NCBI GenBank assembly: GCA_951812755.1
Contig: OX638329.1
Coordinates: 2,465,339-2,529,338, forward strand
From: an uncultured Latescibacterota bacterium
GTDB taxonomy: Bacteria; Latescibacterota; UBA2968
DNA: 64,000 nucleotides
Reading direction: 5' to 3'
Each line of letters starts with the position of its first letter. Positions within the stretch are counted from its first letter, which is position 1. Below, in pieces: positions 26,428 through 48,093 of the stretch. Below the pieces are notes generated by a model. That model was not told where the DNA came from, made no database searches, and saw only the letters and a list, made by a program, of their open reading frames with translations. Both the position numbers and the translations under genes were made by a program.

Positions 26428-28562
26428 ATGCAAGATAGCCAGGTCAATCGCATTCCCAACTTTATCTGGGGCATTGCCGATGATGTGTTGCGCGATCTGT
26501 ACGTGCGGGGCAAGTACCGCGATATTATCCTGCCGATGACGGTGATTCGGCGGCTGGATGCGGCGCTCGAGCCGACCAAGCAGGCTGTTCTCGATATGGG
26601 AACCAGACTGGACGATGATGGCGTTATTGAACAGGAGGCCGCTCTGAAGCAAGCAGCCGGGCACGCTTTTTACAACGCTTCGCCATTCACTTTGCGCGAT
26701 CTTCGCGCCCGCGCCAACCGGCAGCAACTTCGCGCTGATTTTGAGGCGTATCTGGATGGATTTTCGTCCAATGTGCAGGATATTTTGAAGAATTTTGAGT
26801 TTCGCAATCAGATTCCGCGTTTGTCTGATGCCGATGTTCTGGGCGCGTTGATTGAAAATTTTTGTCGCGGGATATCAATCTCAGTCCTTACCCGGTGGAG
26901 AACAGCGATGGTTCTGTGCGGTTTTCCGGTCTGGACAATCATGCGATGGGTACGATTTTTGAAGAATTGGTGCGGCGGTTTAATGAGGAGAATAACGAGG
27001 AGGCTGGCGAGCACTGGACGCCGCGCGATGCGGTCAAGCTGATGGCGAATCTGATTTTTCTCCCGGTTGCGGATGAGATTGAGTCGAGTACCTACTTGCT
27101 CTACGATGGTGCTTGCGGTACGGGTGGCATGCTGACTGTTGCCGAGGAGACGCTTCGAGATCTCGCCCAGGCGCGGGGTAAGCAGGTTTCCACGCACCTT
27201 TATGGACAGGAGATCAATGCCGAGACCTATGCTATTTGCAAGGCGGATTTGTTGCTGAAGGGCGAAGGGAGCGCGGCAGATAATATTATTGGAGGACCGG
27301 AGTATTCGACGCTTTCCAATGATGCTTTTCCATCCCACAAGTTTGATTTTATGCTGAGTAATCCGCCCTATGGCAAGAGTTGGAAGAACGATCTGGCTCG
27401 TCTGGGAGGCAAGAGCGGTCTATCCGATCCGCGATTTCTTATCGCTCATGACGGCGATGCGGAGTATTCTCTGCTCACCCGCTCCAGCGATGGGCAGATG
27501 TTGTTTCTCGCCAATATGCTTTCGAAGATGAAGCGCGATACCAGTCTGGGTAGTCGCATTGCCGAGGTCCACAACGGGAGTTCTCTGTTCACTGGCGACG
27601 CTGGGCAGGGTGAGAGCAATATCCGTCGCTGGATTATCGAGAATGACTATCTGGAGGCGATTGTCGCGCTGCCGCTCAATATGTTTTACAATACGGGCAT
27701 CGCCACGTATATCTGGGTGCTGACTAATCGCAAGCCAGCGCATCGGCAAGGCAAGGTGCAACTTATTGACGCGACCGGGTGGTATAGCCCTCTGCGTAAG
27801 AATCTGGGTGCCAAGAACTGTGAGTTGTCCAATGGTGACATCCGCCGCATTTGCGACGCTTTCTTGGCGTTTGAGGAGACCGAGCAGTCGAAGATTTTTC
27901 CCAACAAGGCATTTGGCTACTATAAGGTGACGGTTGAACGACCGCTAAGGCTCGCTGTCGATTTGTCGCCCGAGCAACGGGTGCAATTTCGGGATGCCTG
28001 TCGAGAGGCAGATGAAGAGCCTCTCGCCGATGTGGTTGATGGGGTAGCCGAGACCATTGGCAATGGTCCCCATCTCGACTTCAATTGTTTCTTGGATGCG
28101 GTTGCCGCAGAGGCTTCTGAGCAGGGTATCAAGCTGATCGCCAAACGAAAGAAGCTGTTGCAAACGTCGCTGGCATTTCGGGACGAAGCCGCTGAACCGG
28201 TGATTAAGAGGGTCCACAAATTGGGCAATAGAGAGCCAGACTCGATTCGCGGTCTGGTAGAGGCGACTGTGAACGATCAGTGTGTCGTTGTCGAATACGA
28301 ACCCGATAGCGAGTTGCGCGATACCGAACAGATACCTCTACTTGAGGATGGCGGTATTGAGGGCTTCTTGCACCGTGAGGTGTTGCCCTATGCTCCTGAT
28401 GCATGGTACGTTCCGACGAGTGTCAAAATTGGCTACGAGATCAGCTTTACCCGCCATTTCTACAAGCCACAACCCATGCGGTCACGAGAAGAAATCCGCG
28501 CTGATATAATGGCGCTGGAGCGAGAGAATGAAGGAGTGTTGGCGGAGATTATGGGGGAGTAA
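26428..28562 (+). pseudogene. hsdM: Type I restriction-modification methyltransferase HsdM, one -1 frame break
   Basis: N6-adenine methyltransferase subunit of a type I system, about 710 residues when both frames are joined. The first frame (26428-27042) carries the HsdM N-terminal helical domain to LGALIENF; the second, from 26862, continues INLSPYP...LDNHAMGTIFEELVRR, SAM motif DGACGTGGM, catalytic SNPPYG and a long C-terminal extension. The break lies on AAAATTTTTG (26855-26864); reading one base back at the A AAT TTT heptamer gives a continuous conserved sequence. It could be a homopolymer error, a real mutation or programmed slippage. AAGAGG precedes the ATG. Confidence 0.9.
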
Positions 28563-31539: not shown

Positions 31540-31665
31540 TGGTTGTTTGATAGTTGTTTGATAGAAAACCCGAAAAATGATTCGGCAGGATAGGTTTGAT
31601 TTTGTAAATTATTGTTATACAAATACTTACTATTTTTCAATTTGTTTGATGGTTGTTTGATGGAA
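31514..31665. repeat. 11-bp direct-repeat arrays, left side of AlbA_2 gene
   Basis: Units of consensus TTGAYGGTTGY: four at 31514-31557, ending in TTGATAGAAAACCCGAAAA, then two more at 31648-31665 ending in TTGATGGAAACCCAAAT. The first overlaps the stop of the DarG-like gene. A larger array of the same unit is on the other side of the next gene. Confidence 0.85.
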
Positions 31666-31766
31666 ACCCAAATGATCACCGACACCATCGAGTGCGGTTT
31701 GGAAGATTGTATCTGCGACCTAAGGGTGTAGAGAAGCGTAATTTTGATGAAAGCGAGCATATTAAC

Positions 31767-33455
31767 ATGAGTGAAAGCCAGGACATCGCGCTCATTGATG
31801 AGTTGCGCAGTATGCCGACAGAAACCGAATGGTTGGAGTTCAAGCGCAATCGCTATGAACCTCAGCAGATCGGGGAATATCTGTCCGCGCTTGCAAATTC
31901 GGCCTGCATCGCTGCCAAGACGGCTGGCTATCTTGTCTTCGGTATTGCCGATGAGACACATGAGGTTGTCGGCACAGATTTTGATCCCTATAATACCAAA
32001 GCGAAGGGCAATCAAGACCTGCTGCTCTGGGTTGGGGCAGGGTTGCATCCGAATGCAGGGTTCGAGCCACGTATTGTTAATCATCCGGGTGGTCGGGTCG
32101 TTGTCTTTGAGGTTGGCCCCGCGAGAGATCAACCTGTTAGCTTTCGCGGAAAAGCTTATATCCGCGTAGGTTCCAGCAAGACCGAACTTAGCAAGCACCC
32201 CGAGAAGGCTCGTGTGATTTGGACGCGCGGGAGCGACTGGTCTGCAGAGGTGTGTGAACAGGCGAGGCTTGATGATCTTGACCCCAATGCCTTGGTCAAG
32301 GCGCGCGAGCAGTTCGTCATCAAGCATCCGGCGCAGGCGGATGAAGTTGAGGAGTGGGACGACGCGACGTTTCTCAACAAAGCCCGGGTTCTAAGGCAGG
32401 GTGCTGTGACGAATACGGCACTGCTGTTGCTGGGACGGCCGGAATCGTCGGTTCTATTCTCGCCGATGGTGGCTAAAATTTCCTGGATACTCAAGGACGA
32501 TCACAATATCGAGTTAGATTACGAGCACATTGGGCCGCCATTCTTGCTTGCAGGGGACCGCCTTCTGAAGCGCGTCCGCAACCTCACTGTGCGCGCCCTG
32601 CCGAGTGGGACACTGTTCCCTCAAGAAATTACTCAGTACGACCCATGGGTAATCCGCGAAGCCCTGCACAACAGCATCGCACATCAGGACTATCGTCTGC
32701 GCGGACGGATTGTTGTCGTCGAATTTCCCGACCGCATCTTGCTGACCAATGTCGGGGATTTTTTGCCCGGCGATGTCGAGACGGTCATCCAACAGGACGC
32801 CCCCCAGGCCATCTACCGCAATCCATTCTTAGCTGATGCCATGGTTGAATTGAATCTGATTGATACTCAGGGTGGCGGTATTAAGCGCATGTTCGATACA
32901 CAGAGAAAGCGTTTCTTTGCGCTTCCAGACTACGATTTGACACAGACAAATAGCGTGGCTGTGAGCATCCACGGTCGCATTCTTGATGAGCGCTATACTC
33001 GGCTCCTGATGGAACGAACTGACCTGAACCTCAGTCAAGTTATGCTACTTGACCAGATGCAAAAGGGAATGCGTATCAGCCGGGAAGATCATCGCTCTCT
33101 AAAGGCCAGCGGTCTTGTTGAAGGCCGTTACCCTAACTTAATGGTCGCTGAATCGATTGCTAAGGTGACGGATGACACTGACCGTTACCTAATAGAACGC
33201 GGATTCGACAAGCAGTACTACCTGGATATGATTTTAACCTTAATCCGCGAACATGGCCCGGTCAGTCGCAAAGAGATCGATCAGGCCCTGATTTCGGAGC
33301 TACCTGATCGGCTGACAGAGGAGCAGAAGCGGTGGAGGGCTCAAAATCTCATACAGGATCTGCGTCGCTCCGGTTTGATCGTCAATCAGGGGACCCGTGC
33401 CCAACCTGCATGGATGCTCTCAGACGCACATCAGGGAAGGACATTTCATAAATAA
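31767..33455 (+). CDS. AlbA_2 (Schlafen-type ATPase fold) domain protein, RecG-like annotation family
   Basis: 562 residues. N-terminal AlbA_2 domain: ETEWLEFKRN...EYLSALANSACIAA and GYLVFGIAD, then FRGKAYIRVGSSKTEL. The central part has the HATPase-like block IREALHNSIAHQDYRLRG, and the C-terminus carries a winged-helix LTLIREHGPVSRKEIDQAL. Such proteins are often mis-annotated RecG-like helicase; they are DNA-binding regulators or defence effectors. ATG at 31767 is used because the domain begins there. The gene sits between arrays of 11-bp repeats, which are plausible binding sites for it. The reading frame is intact, unlike most of its neighbours. Confidence 0.8.
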   Translation: MSESQDIALIDELRSMPTETEWLEFKRNRYEPQQIGEYLSALANSACIAAKTAGYLVFGIADETHEVVGTDFDPYNTKAKGNQDLLLWVGAGLHPNAGFEPRIVNHPGGRVVVFEVGPARDQPVSFRGKAYIRVGSSKTELSKHPEKARVIWTRGSDWSAEVCEQARLDDLDPNALVKAREQFVIKHPAQADEVEEWDDATFLNKARVLRQGAVTNTALLLLGRPESSVLFSPMVAKISWILKDDHNIELDYEHIGPPFLLAGDRLLKRVRNLTVRALPSGTLFPQEITQYDPWVIREALHNSIAHQDYRLRGRIVVVEFPDRILLTNVGDFLPGDVETVIQQDAPQAIYRNPFLADAMVELNLIDTQGGGIKRMFDTQRKRFFALPDYDLTQTNSVAVSIHGRILDERYTRLLMERTDLNLSQVMLLDQMQKGMRISREDHRSLKASGLVEGRYPNLMVAESIAKVTDDTDRYLIERGFDKQYYLDMILTLIREHGPVSRKEIDQALISELPDRLTEEQKRWRAQNLIQDLRRSGLIVNQGTRAQPAWMLSDAHQGRTFHK

Positions 33456-34305: not shown

Positions 34306-35750
34306 ATGGCAGAATTACGATTCGACATCACGCCGTTTCTGGATCAAGACGAAGGTCAGCACTTTGATCGCAAGTCGTTGTATGAAGGGATAGGTGAGGC
34401 CAAACGGTCACGTAACCGGCGCGCGGTGCGAGACCAGGTTGCGGAGTACATCGCTGCTTTCGCTAATGCCGAAGGTGGCGTATTGATTCTGGGCATAGAG
34501 GATGACCGCACCATTACAGGACATCGGCTTCCGCAGGATGCTTTGAGCAATATCCTGAATACCCCGAGCACTCGCTTACAGCCCGCACAACCCGATGGTT
34601 TTGTTATGCAGGTTGAAGGGCGCGAAGTGATTGTTTTTGATGTACCGGCTTCGGATGTTCCCGTTCAAGTAATCGGGGATGGATTCCCGTTGCGAATGGG
34701 TGACCAGACCGTGCAATCCAGCGAGAGCCAAATCAATACGCTCAAGTTTGAAGGTATGGCGGAGAGTTGGGAGAGCCGACGGTCATCAATGACTTTGGCT
34801 GATCTGGATGAGCGACTGTTAGAACGCGCACGACAAGGGGCGGGTTTATCCGCTTTGAGTGATGAAGAATATTTGCTCAAGCGCAAATTGGCCGACCGCC
34901 GTGGGCGAGGGGTCGTGCTTCGAAATGCTGCGGAGTTGCTCTTTGCCCGTTATGGTCCGGACCATCCCAATGCCGGTGTCCGTCTATTTCGCGTCATTGG
35001 CACCGAGCGACATACCGGACCCGAGCACAATGTCGAAGAACGTCCGCGTTGCGAAGGTAATTTGCCTGCGGTTATATTGGAAATTCGGACTGTTATCAGC
35101 AGTTTGCTGCGACGCCCTATGCGGCTTGTGGGTAGTCGCTTTCAGGAGTCCGTCGAATATCCGGATTTCGCATGGCTGGAGGCGTTACTCAATGCCATCG
35201 CGCACCGCGATTACAGATGCGTGCTTTATCCGGTCTCGATACCTTAAATGCCAGTTATCTTTTGCGCGGCCTCCGCGACCGAGATTTGCTGGAGCTTCAT
35301 TCTCATGGTCCCAATAGCTACTACACGTTGACTTCTGTTCTGACATCGCAAGTTGGAGATTACAAACTGGAAACCGGAGAGTCCAGAGCGAAAGATGGGA
35401 GGGAGTTCGGCCTGGATACAGGTAAGCCTGGTGCGGATGAGGGGGAGTTCAGCACGGATGGGAGGGAGTTCGATGCGGATGGGGGGGAGCTTCCCGATTA
35501 TATTAGAGCGCGTATTGCAAAACTTGGAAAACGGCCGCGTCGTGTGCGTGTGCGCCCCATCATCCATTTAATATGCAATCAAGGAGAGTGGGTAACTTCC
35601 GCTGAAATTGCCCGGTTTCTCAATATCGGTCAAAGCAAACTAACGGCGGGTTATATTACTCCGATGATGCATAGCGGAGAACTTGAGTCACGCTTTCCAG
35701 ACAAGCCTAATCATCCACGCCAGGCTTATCGGACCAGGGTGTCTCCTTAG
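34306..35750 (+). pseudogene. AlbA_2-domain protein with internal deletion and frameshift
   Basis: N-terminal AlbA_2 domain intact: EGQHFDRKSL...AEYIAAFANAEGGVLILGIED, GFPLRMGDQTVQ, then LEALLNAIAHRDYR, where frame 1 ends at 35247. The next expected part, the HATPase-like core of about 100 residues, is missing. The other frame resumes with ALSGLDTLNASYLLRGLRDRDLLELH, a low-complexity GREF/GEF-D-G repeat, and a winged-helix C-terminus ending NHPRQAYRTRVSP. Deletion with frame loss near 35210-35235 explains it. A 313-residue N-terminal product could still be made. Confidence 0.8.
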
Positions 35751-36784: not shown

Positions 36785-36976
36785 GTGTGCTCCTGGTAAA
36801 AGGTAAGATGTGTACATTAGAAATTACGAAAGTACAAGATCAAAAACAAATGCAATGATTCTGCTGCATAAAGCGTCTATACATTTTTGGTCTTTGACTT
36901 TTGGGCGTTGCGTCTATATTTTTTGGCGCGATATGTTGTTGATTGGCGAACTATGACGCGAAAGGATTTAGATTAC

Positions 36977-38203
36977 ATGGCGAGTATTAATGCAAATTAT
37001 GACAAATTGGCTGCGGGATATTTGTTTCCCGAGATCGCGCGGCGGACGCAGGTTTTTCTCGATGCCCATCCAGAGGTGTCCGTGATGCGGTTGGGCATTG
37101 GCAATACGACTGAACCACTGACCAAAAGCGTGATTGCCGGTTTGCACGATGCGGTGGATCAGATGGCGCGTGTGGAGACGTATCGCGGCTATGCCGATGG
37201 CGGAGAAGGCGAGCCGGAGATGCGGGAGGCTCTGGCGAAACGCTATGCAAAGTACGGGGTTGAACTCGATGCGTCTGAGGTTTTTGTGAGTGATGGAGCC
37301 AAGTCGGATTCGGCGAATATCCAGTCGATTTTTGGTATGGATAATGTGATTGCTGTGCAGGATCCGGCATATCCGGTATATGTTGATAGCAATGTGATTT
37401 CCGGACGGACGGGCGAGGCGGTGAACGATCAGTACGAAGGACTGATTTATATGCCGTGTAAAGAAGAGAATGGTTTTATGCCCGAGGTGCCAGATCAAAA
37501 AGTGGATTTGATCTATATTTGTAGTCCGAATAATCCGACGGGTGCTGTGGCTACCCGGGCGCAGCTTCAGGCGTTTGTAGATTATGCCATAGAACACAAG
37601 GCGGTGATTATTTACGATGCAGCTTATGCCGGGTATATTTCCGATGCGGATTTGCCGCGGAGTATTTACGAGGTTGAGGGGGCAAAGTCCTGTGCGATTG
37701 AGATCAATAGTTTTTCAAAAGATACCGGGTTTACGGGTGTGCGTCTGGGGTGGACGATTGTGCCGATGGATCTTATTGTGGAAGATGCAGGGGCGGGCAA
37801 ATTGAATACGCTGTGGGGCAGGCGCCAAAATACGTTTTTTAATGGAGCTTCGAATATTGTGCAACTGGGTGCTTTGTCGGTGTTTACAGAAGAAGGCGAG
37901 CGCGAATGCCAGGAGTTGATTGCGTATTATATGGAAAATGCACGCATTATTCGGGCGGGTCTGAGAAGTCTTGGGATAACGGTTTTTGGCGGTGTACACG
38001 CGCCCTATTTGTGGCTCAAGACACCGAATAGTATGTCGTCGTGGGACTTTTTTGACAAGTTGTTGTCAGAAGCCCATGTCGTCGGTACACCGGGTTCTGG
38101 TTTTGGACCTGCTGGCGAAGGTTATTTTCGCTTGAGTTCGTTTGGACATCGAGAAGATGTCGAGCGGGCAGTGGCGAGTATTCAGGCGAATTTGAAAATT
38201 TGA
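36977..38203 (+). CDS. dapL: LL-diaminopimelate aminotransferase
   Basis: PLP aminotransferase making LL-diaminopimelate directly from tetrahydrodipicolinate for lysine and peptidoglycan. 408 residues. LAAGYLFPEIARR, MRLGIGNTTEPL, YRGYADGGEGEPEMREALA, SDGAKSDSANIQ, the cofactor site SFSKDTGFTGVRLGWT (Schiff-base Lys) and SGFGPAGEGYFRLSSFG all match DapL rather than other class I/II aminotransferases. ATG at 36977 begins the conserved part; ATG 36953 is an alternative. Presence of DapL suggests the succinylase dap route is not used. Confidence 0.95.
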   Translation: MASINANYDKLAAGYLFPEIARRTQVFLDAHPEVSVMRLGIGNTTEPLTKSVIAGLHDAVDQMARVETYRGYADGGEGEPEMREALAKRYAKYGVELDASEVFVSDGAKSDSANIQSIFGMDNVIAVQDPAYPVYVDSNVISGRTGEAVNDQYEGLIYMPCKEENGFMPEVPDQKVDLIYICSPNNPTGAVATRAQLQAFVDYAIEHKAVIIYDAAYAGYISDADLPRSIYEVEGAKSCAIEINSFSKDTGFTGVRLGWTIVPMDLIVEDAGAGKLNTLWGRRQNTFFNGASNIVQLGALSVFTEEGERECQELIAYYMENARIIRAGLRSLGITVFGGVHAPYLWLKTPNSMSSWDFFDKLLSEAHVVGTPGSGFGPAGEGYFRLSSFGHREDVERAVASIQANLKI

Positions 38204-38290
38204 GGTGAGTTAAAGCAACCACAGATGAACACAAAGGCAAGCGGCTGAGAAATGGGGCGTCTTACCTTTTACCGCTGAGGACTAATTCTC

Positions 38291-39736
38291 ATGACAGAAC
38301 GCAATCCAAACATCATTTTTATTCTGGCTGATGATATGGGCTATGGGGATCTGGCTTGCCAGAATCCAGAGTCTAAAATCCCAACGCCCAATCTGGACCG
38401 GCTGGCGTCGCAGGGGGTGCGTTTTACCGATGCCCACGCGCCGTCCAGCGTTTGTACGCCGTCGCGCTATGCGATTCTTACAGGGCGATATTCCTGGCGC
38501 ACCCGGTTGAAGGGCGGCGTGTTGTGGCCCTGGGATCCGCCTTTGATTGAGCCGGGGCGTACGACGGTGGCGGCATTGTTGCGAGATCAGGGGTATCGCA
38601 CGGCCTGTATTGGGAAGTGGCATTTGGGATGGCACTGGGATACGAAGGATGGGCGTGCGGCTTATGAAGGCGCGGAATACGGGGTGTTGGGCAGGGATCA
38701 GCGGTATGAATTGGGCAAGAATATCGATTTTAGTAAGCCAGTCACTGGCGGGCCTATAGAATGCGGGTTTGATTATTATTTTGGCGATGATGTGCCCAAT
38801 TTTCCGCCCTATACCTGGTTTGAAAATGATCGGTTGGTGGATGAGCCAGTTGAGGAGAAGCCCGAGGAGATGTTTGGATCGCCCGGGGCTATGGCGCCGG
38901 GGTGGTCTCTGGAGGCGGTGATGCCCGAGTTGACCCGGCGCGCGGTACAATATATTGAGGCGGCGGATGAGCAACCGTTTTTTTTGTATTTTCCACTGAC
39001 TGCGCCGCATACGCCGATTGTGCCAATAGATGAGTTTAAGGGTATGAGCGAGGCGGGTGAATACGGAGATTTTGTGTGTGAAGTGGATTGGACTGTGGGC
39101 GAGGTGATGGCGGCGCTTGATCGAAAAGGGATTGCCGAGAATACGCTGATTATTTTTACCAGCGATAATGGGCCGGAAAATTTTGCGTATAGACGGATCC
39201 AGGAATACGGTCATTACAGCATGGATGGTTTGCGGGGGTTGAAACGCGATGTGTGGGAAGGCGGGCATCGGGTTCCGTTTGTTGTTAGATGGCCCGGTCA
39301 GATTGAGGCGGGCAGGGTTTGCGATGAGGTGATTTGTCTGTCCGATTTTATGGCTACGGCGGCGGCGATAAACGGCGCGTCTTTGTCGGAAGACATGGGT
39401 GAAGATAGTTATAATATATTGCCCGCGCTTTTAGATGAGACTGTTGATACGCCCATCCGGGAGGCAACTGTGCATCACAGTATTCGAGGGAAGTTCGCCA
39501 TTCGGAAGGGGCGCTGGGTGTTGATTGATGCGCCGAGTGGGGATGATAATAAAGAGCCGGGTTGGTTTGTGGAAGAACGCGGGTATGTACCACACGATCA
39601 TCCGGGCGAACTTTTTGATCTCGAACGCGATCGGATTGAGCGATTTAACTGTTATGCGGAATATCCCGAGATTGTTGAAGAACTCAAAACATTGCTCGAT
39701 AGGTATAAGCGAGAAGGCCGAAGTGTTTCGCGCTGA
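38291..39736 (+). CDS. Arylsulfatase-type sulfatase
   Basis: 481 residues. Metal block IIFILADDMGYGDLA, sulfatase signature CTPSR at Cys55 followed by GRYSWRTRL, IGKWHLGWHW, FTSDNGPE and the C-terminal LFDLERDRIE. The WHLG and SDNG motifs place it in the S1 arylsulfatase type, different from the one at 13741. No signal peptide is visible. It is 21 bp upstream of the NHL gene and may share its transcript, though a functional tie to the envelope genes is unproven. Confidence 0.93.
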   Translation: MTERNPNIIFILADDMGYGDLACQNPESKIPTPNLDRLASQGVRFTDAHAPSSVCTPSRYAILTGRYSWRTRLKGGVLWPWDPPLIEPGRTTVAALLRDQGYRTACIGKWHLGWHWDTKDGRAAYEGAEYGVLGRDQRYELGKNIDFSKPVTGGPIECGFDYYFGDDVPNFPPYTWFENDRLVDEPVEEKPEEMFGSPGAMAPGWSLEAVMPELTRRAVQYIEAADEQPFFLYFPLTAPHTPIVPIDEFKGMSEAGEYGDFVCEVDWTVGEVMAALDRKGIAENTLIIFTSDNGPENFAYRRIQEYGHYSMDGLRGLKRDVWEGGHRVPFVVRWPGQIEAGRVCDEVICLSDFMATAAAINGASLSEDMGEDSYNILPALLDETVDTPIREATVHHSIRGKFAIRKGRWVLIDAPSGDDNKEPGWFVEERGYVPHDHPGELFDLERDRIERFNCYAEYPEIVEELKTLLDRYKREGRSVSR

Positions 39737-39757
39737 TCTGAGATGAGGGATGATTTT

Positions 39758-40693
39758 ATGGGACGTATTTTTTGCATCCTGATTGTATTTGCATGGGTTG
39801 GCATGGCCAACGCAGAGGTGCAGGTCGCGTTTCGCTTTGAGGCTGTTTTTGGCGAAATAGGGGGTGGCGATGGGCAGTTTCTCGATCCCGAGGGATTGAC
39901 TCTGGATACGTCGGGCAATGTGTTTGTGGTGGATACCGGGAATGATCGCGTCCAAAAATTGTCTCCAACTGGCACCTTTTTGAGGGCAGTGGGGGGACCG
40001 GGCTGGGAAGATGGACAATTTAATAAACCGGGTGGTATTGCCGCGAGCAAGGGGTTGGAGATTTATGTGGCTGATGGCCGAAATCGCCGCATTCAGGTGT
40101 TTAATCTCAATTTGCGTCTCCTATCGGTGATTGGGGGTGCGGATGCTGGTGGTTCTATGGATCTGGGTACGCTCAGTGGTATTGCCGTGTCAGATGCAGA
40201 TGAGATTTTGGTGAGCGATATCGATGCGGATCAACTGGTGCAGATCGATACGTATAGCCGCGTTGATCGCAGTTTTGGCGGGTTTGGGTATGGGGCTGGC
40301 AATTTGCGGCGGCCTTTGGGGATCGCAATAGAGGGACGTGAGGTGGTTTATGTTTGCGATAGTGAGAATGATCGGATCGCGGTGTTCGACAGATTTGGCA
40401 ATTTTCAAAAGACAATGGGAGAAGATGTTTTATTGCAGCCTTCGGCACTTTGTTTAGGACCTGAGCGGACGTTGATTGTAGCGGATACGGGCCACCATCG
40501 CATTGTGGTGTTTGATCTCGATTCAGGCGGTGTTGCTGGCTCTTTGGGCGGTCCCGATCCGGGAAAGGGTGCGATGGCATTTCAATTTCCCCGGGGTGTC
40601 GCGCTTGGACGCGCTGGCAGGCTGTTCGTTCTGGATTCGGGCAATGGGCGCATTCAGAAGTTGCAATTGCAAGTTTCAAGGGTCCGCAGATGA
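39758..40693 (+). CDS. Exported NHL-repeat beta-propeller protein
   Basis: 311 residues with signal peptide MGRIFCILIVFAWVGMANA. Six NHL-type repeats are seen, each with a phrase such as VFVVDTGNDRVQKLSPTG, IYVADGRNRRIQVFN, VYVCDSENDRIAVFDRFG, LIVADTGHHRIVVFD and LFVLDSGNGRIQKLQ, enough for one propeller. Likely a periplasmic or surface binding scaffold. The ATG at 39758 has GAGG upstream and starts the signal; 39743 is the alternative. Its stop lies within the CGCAGATGAA repeat that separates it from the giant barrel gene. Confidence 0.85.
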   Translation: MGRIFCILIVFAWVGMANAEVQVAFRFEAVFGEIGGGDGQFLDPEGLTLDTSGNVFVVDTGNDRVQKLSPTGTFLRAVGGPGWEDGQFNKPGGIAASKGLEIYVADGRNRRIQVFNLNLRLLSVIGGADAGGSMDLGTLSGIAVSDADEILVSDIDADQLVQIDTYSRVDRSFGGFGYGAGNLRRPLGIAIEGREVVYVCDSENDRIAVFDRFGNFQKTMGEDVLLQPSALCLGPERTLIVADTGHHRIVVFDLDSGGVAGSLGGPDPGKGAMAFQFPRGVALGRAGRLFVLDSGNGRIQKLQLQVSRVRR

Positions 40694-40798
40694 ACGCAGA
40701 TGAAAAGAGGGGCTGTGAATTGGGAAGGATGAAGTGAGACGTAGGGGCGAAAATTTTTTCGCCCGTCCATAATGTAGGGGCAACCTTCGTGGTTGCCC
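40681..40798. repeat. CGCAGATGAA repeat plus two GTAGGGGC hairpins
   Basis: CCGCAGATGAACGCAGATGA, then GGGCGAAA / TTTCGCCC (40745-40764) and GGGCAACC / GGTTGCCC (40778-40798 with TTCGT loop). Both hairpins follow GTAG. The NHL stop codon is inside the first part. Confidence 0.85.
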
Positions 40799-40887
40799 GT
40801 ATTCATGGGCAGACCGCATTAACACAACAGGCCGGGATGTTCCGCGGGGCGGGATGTCCTATTTTTTTTAGAAGCGAGACGCGAGAG

Positions 40888-43800
40888 ATGAGTTTTAGCA
40901 CCCTTCGTATTGCTCAGGGTATTGTATTTTTTTTGGCCTGTGTTGTGACGGCACACGCGCAGGTTCCCGTGCCAGAGCAGTTTACGTTGTTCGATGGGGA
41001 ACGGGTGTTTCAAGCGGATGGGAGCCGCGGGCCTTTTGCGGTTTCTGACCGTGCGATTGAGGCGGCGAGCGAACGGGTTTGGGTAGATGGGGTGTTGTTC
41101 ATTCGGGACCGGGATTATGTGGTAGATGCCGATCGCGCGTTGCTGACGCTTTTGCGGGATGTTGCGCGGGGTGTGGAGATTGTGGTGCGTTTTAGGCAGC
41201 GTCCTCTGGTGGCCGCGCCTGTGGTTCAGCGTCGTCAATTTCAACCGGGGAAAGGTGATGGGGATCAACCGATTGTGCGTGTGTTTGCGCCACCTGTTGT
41301 GCGAGATAGGGATGAAGAGCAGAAATTGACGATTGGCGGTCATAAGAGTATTTCTGTAACTGCGGGGTCTCAACACGCGGTTCATCAGGCTTTGCAGTTG
41401 CGTATTTCGGGCGAGGTTGCCGAGGGGGTCAATTTGTTGGCTGTGCTGTCCGATCGCAATTTGCCTATAGGAGAGCAAGGTGCGTCGAAGCGGTTGCAAG
41501 AATTGGATCGCGTGTTTTTCCAGGTTAATGCCAATCAGGTATCGGCTACGCTCGGCGATCTCGATATGGCGTTTGACGGGACTGTGTTTGGGCGCTATCG
41601 AAGGCAGTTGCAGGGCGCGCGCGTGTTGGCTCATCGGGAGAAGGGTCAGGTTGCGGCTTTTGGAGCGGTGTCGCGGGGGCGATGGGAAACGCGGCGGCTG
41701 GTGACGGTTGAGGGGTTTCAGGGGCCTTATTCATTGTCGGGGGGTGGGTTGAGGGGGCAAATTGTGCCAGAGTCCGAGCGGGTGTATCTCAATGGGCGGT
41801 TGCTCAGACGCGGAGATGGGGCAGATTATACGGTTGATTACGAGCGCGGACATGTGGCGTTCACGCCTGAAATACCGATTGGGGTCGAGAGCCGCGTTAT
41901 AGTGGAATATCAGGTGATTGATGCCGGTATGAGAAGTCGGCTGATGGGTATGGAGTCCCGCGTGTCTCTCGCTGAGGGGATGTCTGTGGGAACAACGCTG
42001 ATTCGAGAGTCTGACCGTTCTGCATTGTCGCCTGGGATAGCTTCAGTACATCGGCAGTTGGGGGTGGTGTACGCGACGTACACGCCGTGGTCAAATGCGC
42101 GTATTTCTGGGGAGTTTGCCCTGAGTGATCGGGATATGGGAAGTGGACGCGGGTTTCGCATGGATGGCGCTTGGAAAGCGCGCAATTTTGAAGTTATGGG
42201 TCGGTTTCGCCAGGTCGGAGCCAATTTTGAAGCATTTGAGAGATTGGACCGGGGGCAGGCTGCCGGGCGATGGGGGTGGCAAGCCGATACTGCGCGAACC
42301 GCCCAGCGCGAGGGCGAGATGGCTGTGCGTTGGGATTTGGGCAAGGCGTTTTTCGTTACCGGGGAATACGGACAGCATTTGGGTGCTGTGCGAACGGATC
42401 GGAAAAGTGTGGGGATTCATTCGCCTGTGGGGATGTACCGCTATGAGTCGCTCGGGCGCGGTAGCGGCGAGATGCGCCGGCACGAGGGGCAAGTCGAAGT
42501 GTCGGTGGGGGGTGTTGTGCCGGGGTTTCGTTTTTCGCTGGAAAATGGGGTGGGTGATGGGGTGGGTAGCAGTTCGCTTTTTTATGCCACACGTCCGCGC
42601 GTTTTGCCTCAAGGGATTGACAAGCAGGAGTTGGTGTGGCACATGGGCGTTGGCGAAGGGCGAAATTGGTCGTGGGTATCGGAGTTAAAATATCGAAAGT
42701 TCAGGCAGCGAGAAACGGTATGGCAGGATAGTTTGCGCGGGTGGTTGCACACCCACAGGGCACAGATGACAAATTGGAGAGGTTGGATTTTTTCTGGTTC
42801 TTATACCCATGGGAACATTCATATCGGGCGCGAGCACCAACAAATGACGCATCTGGGGCGCGTGCGGTTGGGGCATAATCGTCCTGGCTCATCGCATCAG
42901 ATAACGTATCGCGTTTCGAGTACGCGGGTCAGTCAGCCCATTTTTGTCGAGGTGGCGTCCGGGCTGGGGGAATATATTTGGGAGGATGCCAATGGCGATG
43001 GTTTGCGCGATGAGGAAGAGTTTGTGCCCGATGTCGATGGCAATTATGTGCGGGTTTATGATTATGGGCAGTTTGCCCCTGCACGCGATGGTGCGCTGGG
43101 CATGCGCGTGGAAATCGATTTTCGGCGTTTGATTGGAGATGAGCACATTTTATCCGTTGTTGCGCTGGATGCGTCGTTGCGTGCGGATCGGCAGATTGCG
43201 GTTGGAACCAGGCACGCGGCTCCCTGGGATCTGTTTGGTTTTGATGCAGATGCCGGGATTTTGGGTGCTCGCAGGGATGGACTGGTGCGTCTTTATTTGT
43301 TTCGGTATCACAGGCGTGGATCGTTGCGTTTGACTGCGCGCGTGCGCGATCAGGTCAATCGGGCGTTTTACGGAGGTGCTGCTGAAGTTTTTGTGCAGGG
43401 TGGTGCATTGGGAAAATTGAGACCTGTCAATCGCCTTGAATTGGAGACGGAATTTGATCTGGGACACAGAGCGCGCGAAGGCGCAGGGGCTTTTGCCTAT
43501 CGCATTGATGGTGCGAGTGGTGCGCTGCGCTGTGCGTTCAGGTCCGCGCATAAATGGTATTTGCGTTTGGGCGTTTTGAGCGGGCGAGATTGGGAAGGTA
43601 TCCGGGCGTTGCGCGTGTGGCATGTCGGTGTCCGGCCAGAGGTGATTTACGCTTTGCCCGGTCGCGGGCGATTGCGCGGGCGATTGGATTGGACGCGGGT
43701 TTGGGCGACGGATATAACACCCTTATTTTTGGGGTTGGCAAGGGGTAATCGCCAGGGGCAGAATTGGGCGTGGCGGTTGGGGATGGATTACCGCTTTGGC

Positions 43801-43896
43801 AAATATGTATCGGCGCGGGTGATGTACGATGGTCGCGTAAGACCGGCTCGTCAGACCATACATCTCGGGCGCGTGGAGATGCGGGCGGTGTTTTGA
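40888..43896 (+). CDS. Giant outer-membrane beta-barrel protein (unrecognised)
   Basis: 1002 residues from ATG 40888, where a signal peptide MSFSTLRIAQGIVFFLACVV ends at AHA-Q. The first part repeats a segment of type RVWVDGVLFIRDRDYVVDAD...VRFRQR and later RVYLNGRLLRRGDGADYTVD...VEYQV, seen in large surface proteins of uncultured lineages. The remainder alternates aromatic/polar strands, as in a barrel, and ends with VEMRAVF, a C-terminal Phe beta-signal for BAM. A DANGDGLRDEEEF calcium-loop motif lies near residue 700. No named family fits. It is 95 bp before an Omp85 gene, which may insert it. Confidence 0.75.
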   Translation: MSFSTLRIAQGIVFFLACVVTAHAQVPVPEQFTLFDGERVFQADGSRGPFAVSDRAIEAASERVWVDGVLFIRDRDYVVDADRALLTLLRDVARGVEIVVRFRQRPLVAAPVVQRRQFQPGKGDGDQPIVRVFAPPVVRDRDEEQKLTIGGHKSISVTAGSQHAVHQALQLRISGEVAEGVNLLAVLSDRNLPIGEQGASKRLQELDRVFFQVNANQVSATLGDLDMAFDGTVFGRYRRQLQGARVLAHREKGQVAAFGAVSRGRWETRRLVTVEGFQGPYSLSGGGLRGQIVPESERVYLNGRLLRRGDGADYTVDYERGHVAFTPEIPIGVESRVIVEYQVIDAGMRSRLMGMESRVSLAEGMSVGTTLIRESDRSALSPGIASVHRQLGVVYATYTPWSNARISGEFALSDRDMGSGRGFRMDGAWKARNFEVMGRFRQVGANFEAFERLDRGQAAGRWGWQADTARTAQREGEMAVRWDLGKAFFVTGEYGQHLGAVRTDRKSVGIHSPVGMYRYESLGRGSGEMRRHEGQVEVSVGGVVPGFRFSLENGVGDGVGSSSLFYATRPRVLPQGIDKQELVWHMGVGEGRNWSWVSELKYRKFRQRETVWQDSLRGWLHTHRAQMTNWRGWIFSGSYTHGNIHIGREHQQMTHLGRVRLGHNRPGSSHQITYRVSSTRVSQPIFVEVASGLGEYIWEDANGDGLRDEEEFVPDVDGNYVRVYDYGQFAPARDGALGMRVEIDFRRLIGDEHILSVVALDASLRADRQIAVGTRHAAPWDLFGFDADAGILGARRDGLVRLYLFRYHRRGSLRLTARVRDQVNRAFYGGAAEVFVQGGALGKLRPVNRLELETEFDLGHRAREGAGAFAYRIDGASGALRCAFRSAHKWYLRLGVLSGRDWEGIRALRVWHVGVRPEVIYALPGRGRLRGRLDWTRVWATDITPLFLGLARGNRQGQNWAWRLGMDYRFGKYVSARVMYDGRVRPARQTIHLGRVEMRAVF

Positions 43897-43975
43897 TCCG
43901 CAGATGGACGCAGATAGACGCAGATAGACGCAGATGAAAAATCAAATGTAGGAGCGGCATCCCTGCCGCGATTGG
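43896..43975. repeat. CGCAGATGGA repeat with GTAGGAGCGGC hairpin
   Basis: CCGCAGATGGACGCAGATAGACGCAGATAG... (43902-43938) starts at the barrel stop codon, then GCGGCA / TGCCGC hairpin (43954-43969). Confidence 0.75.
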
Positions 43976-43991
43976 GGCTGAGAATAGGTAG

Positions 43992-45653
43992 ATGAATACA
44001 GGTGCGTACATAAAAGTGTGGCGATGCTTGCTTTTTGCGGTGTTGCTGGTCTGTGTCGCGTCCAGCGCGGGGGGAGAGGTGCGTGCGATTGTGAAGCGCG
44101 TGCAGGTTGAAGGGGCGCGATCTGTAAGTGCGCGCGATGTGCGGGGGTGGTTGGTTACGCGGGCGGGCGTTGCGGTGGATTCGGCGTTGTTGCAAAAGGA
44201 TGTTCGCCGAATTTTGAAGGGGTATCAGGCGCGTGGATTCTGGCGGGTGGCGGTGGCTTTTCCCAGGATTGCTATGCGGGGGGAAGATGCGACGGTGGCT
44301 TTTGCTATTGTCGAAGGGGCGCGAACGCGGGTCGCGTCTGTGGAGATAAAGGGTGATCCGGTCTTTGATCTATCAGGGGCTTTTGGCCTGACGCGGGGTA
44401 TGGTGTTGATCGAAAGCGATTTGGACCAGCGGTTGGATCGTTTGTTGCGTTTTTATGAAGATCGGGGCTATCCGTTTTGCGCGTTGCATCCAGATGTGCG
44501 ATTTGATAGTGATGGTGCGCGCGTGTATGTGGTGGTGTCACCTGGTCCTCTGGTGCATGTCGATGCGGTGCGGTTTGAGGGCAATCAAACGACGCGGGAA
44601 GATGTTTTGTTGCGGCATATTTCGTTTGTCGCAGGGGAAGTTTATGACCAGCGGCGCGTGGATGCTTTTGTGAGGCAGTTGCAAAATTTGCCGTTTATTG
44701 ACCGGGTTTATACGCCTGAACTCGTAGTTACCGGTGATGAGATGGCGCTTGTGATCGGTGTGGAGGAGTCGCGCCACACGCGTATTGAAGGGGTACTCGG
44801 TGTGGGTTCTGGACAGGGTCTGACCGGGGAGATCGCGCTCGATGTTCTGAATTTTTCCGGTGGGGGGCGAGAGGGTTACGCGCTGTGGTCACGGCGGGGG
44901 GTGGGTTTGTCAAATTTGCGGGTTTCCTATCGCGAGCCTTATGTGTTAAATAGTCCGCTTTCCGGTTGGGGGGTAGTGGAAATGGTTGCGCGTACGGGGT
45001 ATGTGACGCATAAGTTTGGGGGAGGCGCAGATGTTTCTGTGGGGGAGGGCACGCGATTTTTTGGCGGGGTTGCACACAGGCGCGTTTTGCCCGATTCTTC
45101 GGGGTTGGGGTTTTTCGAGGGCGAGAGGATGTGGTCTCTCGAGTCGGGTGTTCGGTTTGATCGGCGAGGGCGTGCTATGAGTGGTTGGCAGGCGGAGATC
45201 AAGGGAGAGATTGGCGAGGTTTCAGATGGGATCAGGCGCGTGCAGTGGGGTGTTGATGGGCAGGTGTTTTTGCCTGTGAGCAGGCGGTCTGTTATTGCGG
45301 GACGGGCGCGTGCTTTGTGGGTGGGGCAGAAAGGGGATGTGCCGCAGACTGCCGGTATCTGGCTGGGTGGGGCGCAATCGCTGCGGGGCTATCGGGAAGA
45401 GGTGTTTTGGGGGACGAATGCGGGGTGGGTCAATGTGGAATGGCGGTGGTTGCTGGGACCGAAAGCGCGTCTTTTTGCTTTTGTCGATGCGGGAAGGATT
45501 GAGGGGGCAGGGTCGCGTTCATGGCCCGTGTCCTATGGCGTGGGGCTTTTGGCAAATGGACGGATGGGGGCAGTTGGGATAGATTATGGTTTGCCACGCG
45601 GTGAGAGTTTGGGACAGGGGATGGTGCATGTGCGGATGGTCAGCGCGTTTTAG
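43992..45653 (+). CDS. Omp85-family outer-membrane protein (BamA/TamA-like)
   Basis: 553 residues with an N-terminal signal LLFAVLLVCVASSAGG. About three POTRA domains follow (VKRVQVEGARSVSARDVRGW; RVASVEIKGDPVFDLSG; HVDAVRFEGNQTTREDVLLR), then a bacterial-surface-antigen barrel from about residue 270 containing LGGAQSLRGYRE, the conserved LRGY motif of the substrate-crossing strands, and a C-terminal Phe (VSAF). It is shorter than BamA (five POTRA) and closer to TamA or FhaC-type sizes. The genomic place after the giant barrel suggests a dedicated assembly or secretion role. Confidence 0.88.
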   Translation: MNTGAYIKVWRCLLFAVLLVCVASSAGGEVRAIVKRVQVEGARSVSARDVRGWLVTRAGVAVDSALLQKDVRRILKGYQARGFWRVAVAFPRIAMRGEDATVAFAIVEGARTRVASVEIKGDPVFDLSGAFGLTRGMVLIESDLDQRLDRLLRFYEDRGYPFCALHPDVRFDSDGARVYVVVSPGPLVHVDAVRFEGNQTTREDVLLRHISFVAGEVYDQRRVDAFVRQLQNLPFIDRVYTPELVVTGDEMALVIGVEESRHTRIEGVLGVGSGQGLTGEIALDVLNFSGGGREGYALWSRRGVGLSNLRVSYREPYVLNSPLSGWGVVEMVARTGYVTHKFGGGADVSVGEGTRFFGGVAHRRVLPDSSGLGFFEGERMWSLESGVRFDRRGRAMSGWQAEIKGEIGEVSDGIRRVQWGVDGQVFLPVSRRSVIAGRARALWVGQKGDVPQTAGIWLGGAQSLRGYREEVFWGTNAGWVNVEWRWLLGPKARLFAFVDAGRIEGAGSRSWPVSYGVGLLANGRMGAVGIDYGLPRGESLGQGMVHVRMVSAF

Positions 45654-45731
45654 TTTGTGTGACATCTGTGCGTGGAGTATATTTTGTGGCGCAGAAATTC
45701 GTATGCAATTATTATTCAGGAGGAGATCGTT

Positions 45732-47204
45732 ATGTTGAGCAGGATTCGCAGTGTGATGGTGGTCGTTCTCGCCGCGGGTTTCATGTGGGGCTGTGGCGGT
45801 GAGCGTGGGATGGAGTCTTCCGAGGTGGAGGAACGGATTGGACGTCCGCTGAGTAAGATAGCCGTAGCGGACGGTGGTATGTCTCAGGCGATGGTGGTGG
45901 CGACTGTGTCGCAAGATGACGCACCTGTGGCTGGTGTGATGGTCGAGTTTGCGCGTTCTGTTGCCGGGCAGGCTCCGGATTATCAGTGGTCGGATATGAC
46001 CGATGATATGGGGCGCGTCACGGTGGAGATATTCGGTCAGACGAGTGGATATTATCAGGCGCGTGCGTCTCAGGATGGCTCTGTGATGGGGCGCTGGTCG
46101 AGTATCCCAATCAATGGGGGCTACACGTCAACAGTAGCGTTGCCCATTGGTGGGATGGCGCAGGTGACGGGTACGTCTAAACTCATATCCGTTGGCCTGG
46201 TCGTGTCCAAAACAGGGCGGTTATCCGAGATTGGACAGGGGTTTATCAATGGTTTTGAAATGGCTCTTGAAGAGGTGAACTCACAATTGAGTGATGCGAG
46301 CTTGAGGTTTATTGTCGAGGATGATCAGAGCACCATAGAAGGTGCTACTGCGGCGTATAATAAACTTATTCACGAAGATGGCGTGCCAGCTATTCTCGGT
46401 GTTTATACTTCTACTATGGTGCGCGCGGTATTTCCCATTGCGCAGGAAAATGAGGTTGTGGCGATTAGTCCTACCTCGGCCGCACGCGGCCTTAGCGCGA
46501 TTGGCGATTTTGTCTTTCGCGTCAGTCTTACCGTTGATACGTTGATTCCGGGGAGTGTAAAACTGACGCGGGAAAAATTGGGCTATGAGCGCGTGGCCAC
46601 GATGTTTCAAAGCATGGATGTTTTTTCGCAGAGCAGCGACGAAGTGCTAAAGCAGGCCTTCAGTGAGAATGGCGTCGAGGTTCTGACCACTGAGACTTTT
46701 GAAACCGGTGCTATGGATCTTTCCGCGCAATTTTCCAGGATTGTGGCACTGAATCCAGATGCGATTTTTGTTTCGGCTATATCAGCAGGGCGGGCACAGG
46801 CTCTGATCGATGGGGGGCAACACGGTATTCCTATTCTGATTCCTTTGCTCACTCTGGACGGGGTAGAACGCGCTGGAGCGGCGGCTGAGGGGGCAATTAG
46901 TTTTACTTCTTGGAGCAGTACGGGCAATGTACCGGCCAATCGCGCCTTTGTTGAGAATTATATGGCGAAATACGGTGCCGAGCCGGGCCGATACGCCGCA
47001 GTGTCCTACGCGACGGTTCATATTTTCGCAAAGGCTATTGCAGATGCCCAGTCCTCTGATTCGCGCGCGATTCGGGACGCGCTGGCTCAGATTGAGAATT
47101 TGGATACGATTTTGGGCGCGTTTTCTTTTGACGCCAATGGAGATGCGGTTTACGATCCGGCGGTACTGATTGTCAAGGATGGCAAGTTTGAGGTTTTTGA
47201 GTAA
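45732..47204 (+). CDS. Periplasmic-binding lipoprotein with N-terminal beta-sandwich
   Basis: 490 residues. Lipoprotein signal with MVVVLAAGFMWGCGG. Residues about 45-150 form an Ig-like or carboxypeptidase-regulatory type domain (VAGVMVEFARS, TDDMGRVTVEIFG, GYYQARAS). The rest is a Peripla_BP_6/LivJ-type receptor: ISVGLVVSKTGRLSEIGQGF, ILGVYTSTMVRAVFPIAQEN, SPTSAARGL and AVSYATVHIFAKAI. AGGAGG precedes ATG 45732. No ABC permease or ATPase is adjacent, so a sensor or scavenging role at the outer membrane is as likely as import. A strong terminator follows. Confidence 0.87.
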   Translation: MLSRIRSVMVVVLAAGFMWGCGGERGMESSEVEERIGRPLSKIAVADGGMSQAMVVATVSQDDAPVAGVMVEFARSVAGQAPDYQWSDMTDDMGRVTVEIFGQTSGYYQARASQDGSVMGRWSSIPINGGYTSTVALPIGGMAQVTGTSKLISVGLVVSKTGRLSEIGQGFINGFEMALEEVNSQLSDASLRFIVEDDQSTIEGATAAYNKLIHEDGVPAILGVYTSTMVRAVFPIAQENEVVAISPTSAARGLSAIGDFVFRVSLTVDTLIPGSVKLTREKLGYERVATMFQSMDVFSQSSDEVLKQAFSENGVEVLTTETFETGAMDLSAQFSRIVALNPDAIFVSAISAGRAQALIDGGQHGIPILIPLLTLDGVERAGAAAEGAISFTSWSSTGNVPANRAFVENYMAKYGAEPGRYAAVSYATVHIFAKAIADAQSSDSRAIRDALAQIENLDTILGAFSFDANGDAVYDPAVLIVKDGKFEVFE

Positions 47205-47231
47205 TGATTCAACACAGATAGCACGAGAAAA

Positions 47232-47262
47232 GGGCGCGTTTTGACGCGCCCTTTTTATTTTT
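47232..47262 (+). terminator. Rho-independent terminator
   Basis: GGGCGCGT (47232-47239) / ACGCGCCC (47244-47251) with TTTG loop, then TTTTTATTTTT. Ends the binding-protein transcript; the convergent PIG-L gene ends 24 bp away. Confidence 0.92.
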
Positions 47263-47274
47263 GGTCAGTGGAGT

Positions 47275-48093
47275 TTAGAAAAAGGGGAAAAGTTTTGGGA
47301 TATTGTCATCTGTGAGCGCGCTGCCGTATTCGCAGCCTTCATAAGCTTCGGCATATTGGATTTTTGAGCCGTGTTCTTGTCCGTAGTATTTGATCAATAG
47401 GTCGCGATAGCGATCCGCTACGGCGCGAAATTGGTTGAGGCGATGCTGCAACCATTCGCGGCGGCTTTGCGGCGATTCAGGTACCTGGTCGAGGTGGCCC
47501 GCGTTGAAGGGCAACCATTCGTACATTTGCGATGTGTGGCAGTGTAGCATGTCGAGTTTTTTTTCGATGACATCGTCTATGGCTATGACGACATCGGGAG
47601 AAAATGGTTGCGGTTTTTGGAAGTTGTCGCTCAGGTACGCGATGACGGGGTTGTACGACAGGGCGGGGGTGTCTGTGCAGATGTTGGGTACAGTGACCAT
47701 GTATGCCGAGTCCTGTACGAGGATGGATGTGTAGCGGTGATCGGGGTGGTAGTCGTTGGGGCGATGGGTCAGGATGAGGTCTGGCGTATAGTTGCGAATC
47801 AGGCGGATGATTTTTTTGCGGTTTTCAAGGGTGGGCTCAAGTTCGCCGTCGTGGTTGTCGATTACGCGGTATTCAATGCCCGCGACTGCACCTGCTGCCT
47901 GGGCTTCGGCGCGGCGGCGATGGGCGAGTTCAACGCCGCCGATTTCGTGATGCCCCGCGTCGCCATTGGTGACAGAGACAAATTTTACTTTGTGACCGAG
48001 GTTCGCGTATTTGATGGCGATGCCGCCCGCTTTGATATCGCAATCGTCGGGGTGGGCACCAAAGACGATGATTTTTAGTGGTTTGTTATTCAT
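47275..48093 (-). CDS. PIG-L (LmbE) family deacetylase
   Basis: Zinc-dependent N-deacetylase, 272 residues. IIVFGAHPDDCDIKAGG has the AHPDD metal motif, THRPNDYHPDHRYTS the second histidine ligand, and HTSQMYEW is typical of the family. The substrate could be an N-acetyl sugar or GlcNAc conjugate. It starts 9 bp downstream of the MFS gene on the same strand, so the two may be co-transcribed. Confidence 0.9.
   Translation of the reverse strand: MNNKPLKIIVFGAHPDDCDIKAGGIAIKYANLGHKVKFVSVTNGDAGHHEIGGVELAHRRRAEAQAAGAVAGIEYRVIDNHDGELEPTLENRKKIIRLIRNYTPDLILTHRPNDYHPDHRYTSILVQDSAYMVTVPNICTDTPALSYNPVIAYLSDNFQKPQPFSPDVVIAIDDVIEKKLDMLHCHTSQMYEWLPFNAGHLDQVPESPQSRREWLQHRLNQFRAVADRYRDLLIKYYGQEHGSKIQYAEAYEGCEYGSALTDDNIPKLFPFF

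Follow-up and report, generated by a model that had tools for sequence, protein, structure and literature searches.

The principal finding of this analysis is a three-gene module encoding, in order, an exported NHL β-propeller protein, a predicted giant β-barrel related to SprA/Sov, and an Omp85 protein; it is conserved across the phylum Latescibacterota and in many distant families, and is not a chance cluster. The locus occupies positions 39758-47204 of the window, the 64,000-nucleotide stretch of DNA analysed here, within a Latescibacterota genome of 6.53 Mb assembled as a single contig. The favoured reading, with a probability of about one half, is that the three genes constitute a private outer-membrane assembly module, and that the giant channel of SprA type which it builds has a link to type IX secretion. 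A conserved SprA relative travelling with its own BamA-type protein through many families would be a natural client-insertase pair for the insertion of barrels of SprA size, and the module points to an undescribed set of type IX components outside the Bacteroidota, in phyla such as Latescibacterota.

The four consecutive exported proteins that the original prediction placed on one strand are confirmed in the window as four plus-strand open reading frames (Table 1). In the last of these, described there as a lipidated binding protein with an extra N-terminal β-sandwich, the lipobox, FMWGC, is atypical, and the N-terminal Big_1 match is weak and sub-threshold. Within the barrel protein, the D/N/G-rich loop is possibly of calcium-binding type.

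Table 1. Features of the locus, in window coordinates.
Feature	Position	Strand	Description and evidence
NHL β-propeller protein	39743..40693	+	316 aa, N-terminal signal peptide; Pfam NHL E 2.5e-40, 5 repeats
SprA-related giant β-barrel protein	40888..43896	+	1002 aa from ATG, β-rich, C-terminal Phe
First SprA-type small domain (residues 36-104), N-terminal to barrel	40993..41199	+	Residues 39-107 match SprA domain, P 93%; homologous to second copy
Strands of the transmembrane barrel (residues 146-1002), with second small domain inserted among them	41323..43893	+	AF2/DSSP
Second SprA-type small domain (residues 275-344), between early barrel strands	41710..41919	+	TIGR04189 match at residues 291-380; hhalign at 279-423
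Barrel loop GEYIWEDANGDGLRDEEEF, D/N/G-rich, conserved in family	42964..43062	+	Sub-cut-off SdrD_B match; D700, D704 and E711 nearly invariant
Omp85 insertase-type protein	43992..45653	+	553 aa, signal peptide, three POTRA, 16-strand barrel, C-terminal Phe; Pfam, NCBIfam, AF2, Foldseek
Three POTRA domains of Omp85 (about residues 33-260)	44088..44771	+	Align to BamA POTRA 3-5; TIGR03303 positions 152-460; AF2
Periplasmic-binding protein	45732..47204	+	Peripla_BP_6 E 2.5e-50; N-terminal Big_1 match weak, sub-threshold

No Pfam or NCBIfam family matches the barrel protein over its length, and searches of PDB sequences and plasmid records gave no useful match. The earlier view that it fits no known family thus holds for Pfam, which returned nothing, but not for NCBIfam, where residues 291-380 match positions 603-692 of the SprA/Sov model TIGR04189 (E 1.7e-8) in one local stretch that does not extend over most of the length and, at 32.2 bits, lies below the curated cut-off of 200. 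A family profile built from 61 relatives was compared by hhalign with an alignment of Latescibacterota SprA proteins. In this profile-profile comparison residues 279-423, comprising a small domain and the barrel strands that follow it, align to a single SprA segment (P 97.4%, E 1.6e-11), and that SprA domain is matched a second time by residues 39-107 (P 93%), such that both the SprA-type small domain and the homologous barrel strands after it are present in the barrel protein. The two domains, at residues 43-103 and 275-342, are moreover homologous to each other: their alignment scores 74, and none of 1000 shuffles exceeded 45. The repeated motif V-[DN]-G-x-L-x4-D-Y that the original prediction regarded as distinctive occurs nowhere in literal form; what exists are two related segments, VDGVLFIRDRDY at residue 66 and LNGRLLRRGDGADY at residue 301, with spacers of 5 and 7, which belong to the two homologous domains. 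On this profile evidence the barrel is a relative of SprA/Sov and not a protein without a family. Nor is it SprA itself, given its half length, its 32 bits against the 200-bit cut-off and the presence of a separate SprA elsewhere: the window's own genome (G000) encodes a 2087-residue SprA over the cut-off, so that the barrel is not its sole SprA-type translocon, and for 58 of the 60 relatives searched an SprA over the cut-off is likewise encoded elsewhere. The C-terminal residue is Phe in 75 of 85 members of the barrel family and in 49 of 54 members of the Omp85 family, as expected for clients of a BAM-type machinery.

The predicted structure is that of a putative giant barrel. The AF2 model made from the family alignment (pLDDT 85.1, pTM 0.73) has about 37 predicted strands of at least nine residues, which likely close into one barrel; the SprA barrel has 36 strands (PMC12611786). 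When the model was used in Foldseek, the SprA structures 8gl6, 8gl8 and 6h3i ranked second, third and sixth with TM scores of only 0.24-0.25, which, though low, are the highest query-normalised values in the list. The first match by E-value is a Deinococcus S-layer complex, and the best matches by that measure include SlpA/SDBC, SusC and LptD.

Membership of the third protein in the Omp85 superfamily is supported by Pfam (three POTRA domains, E 1.4e-22; Omp85, E 1.1e-5), by an AF2 model with three POTRAs and 16 barrel strands (pLDDT 90.4), and by Foldseek, which finds BAM structures at TM up to 0.74 and TamA at up to 0.68. It is not a BamA equivalog as defined by TIGR03303, a family with five POTRAs, since it has three and scores 132.6 bits, below the cut-off of 297, the match covering BamA POTRA 3-5 and the barrel; the genome's full BamA is a separate and distinct protein, scoring 516 bits. 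TamA is similar in size and also combines three POTRAs with a 16-strand barrel, but the score against the TamA family (NF047950) is 33 bits where the cut-off is 625, and the module includes no TamB partner. Two-partner secretion, which the original prediction had named among known Omp85 systems, resembles the locus in that the Omp85 gene adjoins that of its client. TpsB proteins, however, have two POTRAs and export a helical passenger, whereas here the protein has three POTRAs and a fold of insertase type, and the proposed client is another barrel. Consistent with this, models of the TpsB type (ShlB/FhaC) are not the best match: POTRA_2 gives 25.5 bits (cut-off 24) and ShlB 18.7 (cut-off 22.7), far below the 80.6 bits of POTRA and the BamA-type score. 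The two-partner secretion type was accordingly ruled out and, judged by family scores and predicted fold, the module Omp85 is of insertase type, BamA/TamA-like. The Omp85 gene tree, its deep forks open, is compatible with a single origin of all module copies as well as with several. In family f8 (L037:4466-5584 and L039:5604-6722) the module Omp85, still beside the barrel, measures only 372 residues as called and seems to have lost POTRA domains.

Given that the whole 6.5-Mb genome contains only 11 Omp85 matches, the likelihood that barrel and Omp85 adjoin by chance is well under 1%. Within Latescibacterota, the order NHL-barrel-Omp85 is found in families f1 and f2, barrel-Omp85 in f6 and f8, and NHL-barrel in f3, f5 and f9, the loci of f3 and f5 being partly cut by contig ends; adjacency of barrel and Omp85 has been lost in f7 and f9. 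Of 64 genomes of the phylum, 31 carry both barrel and Omp85, 28 carry neither (all members of family f4, plus G012 and two MAGs that are incomplete), five carry the barrel alone (all MAGs of 57-80% completeness) and none carries the Omp85 alone. Barrel and Omp85 are almost perfectly co-inherited within the phylum. An initial locus scan with the Omp85 as query found matches in the genus only. The barrel profile was run over a set of 386 relatives, of which 322 lie beyond the phylum, and 40 strong-match loci from the latter were examined, with adjacency counted by profiles on stop-to-stop frames at those loci with enough flanking sequence. Omp85 lies just downstream in the same orientation at 24 of 33, the NHL propeller just upstream at 30 of 39, and both are in place at 20 of 32; at 20 weaker and more distant loci, Omp85 follows the barrel in about half. 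Most of the 15 genomes in which the barrel is alone, cut or without an adjacent Omp85 carry a module-type Omp85 elsewhere besides BamA (540-620 residues, 1e-78 to 1e-171), G266, G167 and G093 being ambiguous. The gene order is therefore not unique to this contig. Other recurrent neighbours, namely a TPR protein, an S24 peptidase, NDK, a thiamine synthase, an integrase and an MglA/MglB-like GTPase pair, vary from clade to clade and were rejected as module parts. At one locus (L147:4481-10779), in a genome that its Ser-rich proteins suggest to be Fibrobacter-like, barrel and Omp85 are preceded by genes for a Roadblock protein and an MglA-like GTPase. The genome with locus L148, likewise inferred to be Fibrobacter-like, also has the barrel together with Omp85.

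The NHL protein stands just upstream of the barrel in 18 of the 25 Latescibacterota loci with room for it. Its relatives bear export signals and lipoboxes, and in several genomes outside the phylum the protein is a lipoprotein. No BamB family match was found in Pfam or NCBIfam, the propeller being of the NHL type. In the BAM complex of E. coli the propeller protein BamB is bound to BamA; by this analogy, which adds a propeller partner to the Omp85 fold, POTRAs and 16-strand barrel that the module shares with BAM, the NHL protein would be better compared with BamB than with a sensor. The binding protein and a sulfatase encoded upstream are both confined to the genus and for that reason are not module parts; the former, absent in all other families and already missing in one member of the genus (G008), is a recent neighbour. 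The G008 locus also has a 1023-residue protein with NHL repeats inserted between barrel and Omp85 (L045:11083-14154).

Genomic distribution associates the module with type IX secretion. Counted over the 322 outside genomes, the barrel occurs in 64, SprA (E below 1e-30) in 76 and both in 57, giving a Fisher p of about 1e-38 with shared ancestry ignored, and the distribution of the barrel follows that of SprA. Likewise, in about ten families the module is directly preceded by PorV, an M6-type protease and DUF5683-like proteins, in that order. The protease carries a T9SS sorting tail (Por_Secre_tail) in addition to FG-GAP repeats and, beside PorV, might play the part of PorU in Bacteroidota. The barrel is thus linked by gene position to PorV and to proteins with a T9SS C-terminal domain, the kind of protein that SprA transports. 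In the window's own genome a set resembling the upstream half of this extended cluster lies apart from the module at 5.30-5.31 Mb (L181:6693-16665; 5303693-5313665), where successive genes encode PorV, a protease-like protein with a T9SS tail, a 1047-residue protein that joins a protease-like N-terminus to a propeller and an Omp85 barrel, and two short DUF5683-like proteins. G266 encodes a full-length Bacteroidota-type SprA in addition to a barrel standing alone. In family f7 (L213:5483-17796) the module Omp85 and SprA are divergent and about 4 kb apart, with an LptF/G-like permease between; not being common to f3, f5 and f9, this proximity was set aside as evidence.

In the proposed mechanism, the Omp85, a BamA paralogue reduced to three POTRAs, would insert the roughly 37-strand barrel, whose BAM-type C-terminal Phe fits such insertion. 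The original prediction that the Omp85 is a dedicated assembly factor for the barrel gains from the conserved order, the co-inheritance and the insertase type, from which the assembly role itself may be inferred. The exported NHL propeller, periplasmic or in some relatives lipid-anchored, would dock on the Omp85 POTRAs in the manner of BamB. Once inserted, the barrel, as a shorter SprA relative, may act as a large outer-membrane channel for export or attachment, working within or beside the type IX system with PorV and T9SS-tailed proteins, while its two SprA-type small domains could serve as plug or cap. More tentatively, and with the balance of probability somewhat against it, the module might represent a second SprA-related translocation system beside the canonical type IX system in FCB-group bacteria, equipped with a private BamA-type insertase and a BamB-like propeller and, in its original form, encoded in one cluster with PorV and a T9SS-tailed protease. 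If true, the module would amount to a BAM machine reserved for one giant client, and to a branch of type IX-type secretion not yet described.

The strongest rival to private assembly is that barrel and Omp85 together form one stable machine for assembling or exporting other surface proteins, such as T9SS barrels or lipoproteins, in which the barrel would be a chamber or scaffold, much like the accessory barrel BamG of the Bacteroidota BAM complex, and the propeller would be an adaptor. The gene set is stable at 1:1:1 over large distances, the module Omp85 persists elsewhere when not adjacent, and the BAM of Bacteroidota has an accessory barrel and extracellular parts (PMC12611786), all of which speak for such a machine; yet an SprA-type giant barrel is without precedent as a BAM subunit, and this one has its own insertase-type C-terminus, leaving the account rather improbable. 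Less probable still is an independent barrel, an SprA-like channel that has its own cargo and relies on ordinary BamA for insertion, while the co-transcribed Omp85 and NHL genes next to it serve separate tasks in the outer membrane. Genomes with a barrel lacking adjacent Omp85 or NHL, and the true BamA in the genome, are consistent with independence, but not so the joint absence of barrel and Omp85 in an entire Latescibacterota family and one further genome, the lack of any genome with Omp85 only, and an adjacency kept between distant families.

Whether the barrel is instead a structural, S-layer-like protein akin to Deinococcus SlpA/SDBC, or a barrel for uptake or lipid handling unrelated to secretion, is raised by the Foldseek matches that lead by E-value. 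Sequence-profile homology, on the other hand, is to SprA only, and the barrel is associated with PorV, T9SS-tailed proteins and SprA-bearing genomes, which makes this explanation quite unlikely. Least probable by far is the ligand-sensing envelope system of the original prediction, in which the NHL propeller and the binding lipoprotein serve as sensor modules of the barrel: the four genes do adjoin in the window, but the restriction of the binding protein to the genus and its loss in G008 leave the idea unsupported, and no signalling genes are recurrently linked to the module.

With regard to known systems, the barrel resembles SprA/Sov (TIGR04189; PDB 6H3I, 8GL6, 8GL8) in the homologous small domain and adjacent barrel strands, in a predicted strand number near 36 and in its occurrence in T9SS-bearing genomes, and differs in its length (about 1000-1200 residues against 2000-2400), in lacking most of the N-terminal and extracellular parts of SprA, in its two small-domain copies, in its own NHL and Omp85 module, and in coexisting with a true SprA. 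For the Bacteroidota BAM with BamG and BamH, outer-membrane protein assembly has been proposed to be adapted to the complex proteins that the FCB group makes, SprA among them (PMC12611786); that complex, however, has other accessory proteins and uses the housekeeping BamA, not a second Omp85 beside an SprA relative. In a literature search largely confined to open-access journal papers, no paper was found that links type IX secretion with Latescibacterota or uses 'SprA-like' together with T9SS, and none describing such a module was found for Omp85 with NHL or with SprA. The parts belong to known superfamilies; neither their combination nor the distinct barrel family seems to have been described, and there is a fair chance that the module is a system of its own.

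Around the module, an aminotransferase (36956-38203) and a PIG-L-type deacetylase (47275-48093) flank it and form with it a conserved syntenic block (36956-48093), the gene order being unchanged in further genera of this taxonomic order. Further upstream, a Schlafen AlbA_2 gene at 34306-35750 is apparently broken by a frameshift (open reading frames 34306-35247 and 35172-35750). An AlbA_2/HATPase protein that is intact (31653-33455) is encoded nearby, as is an N6 DNA methylase (26862-28562).
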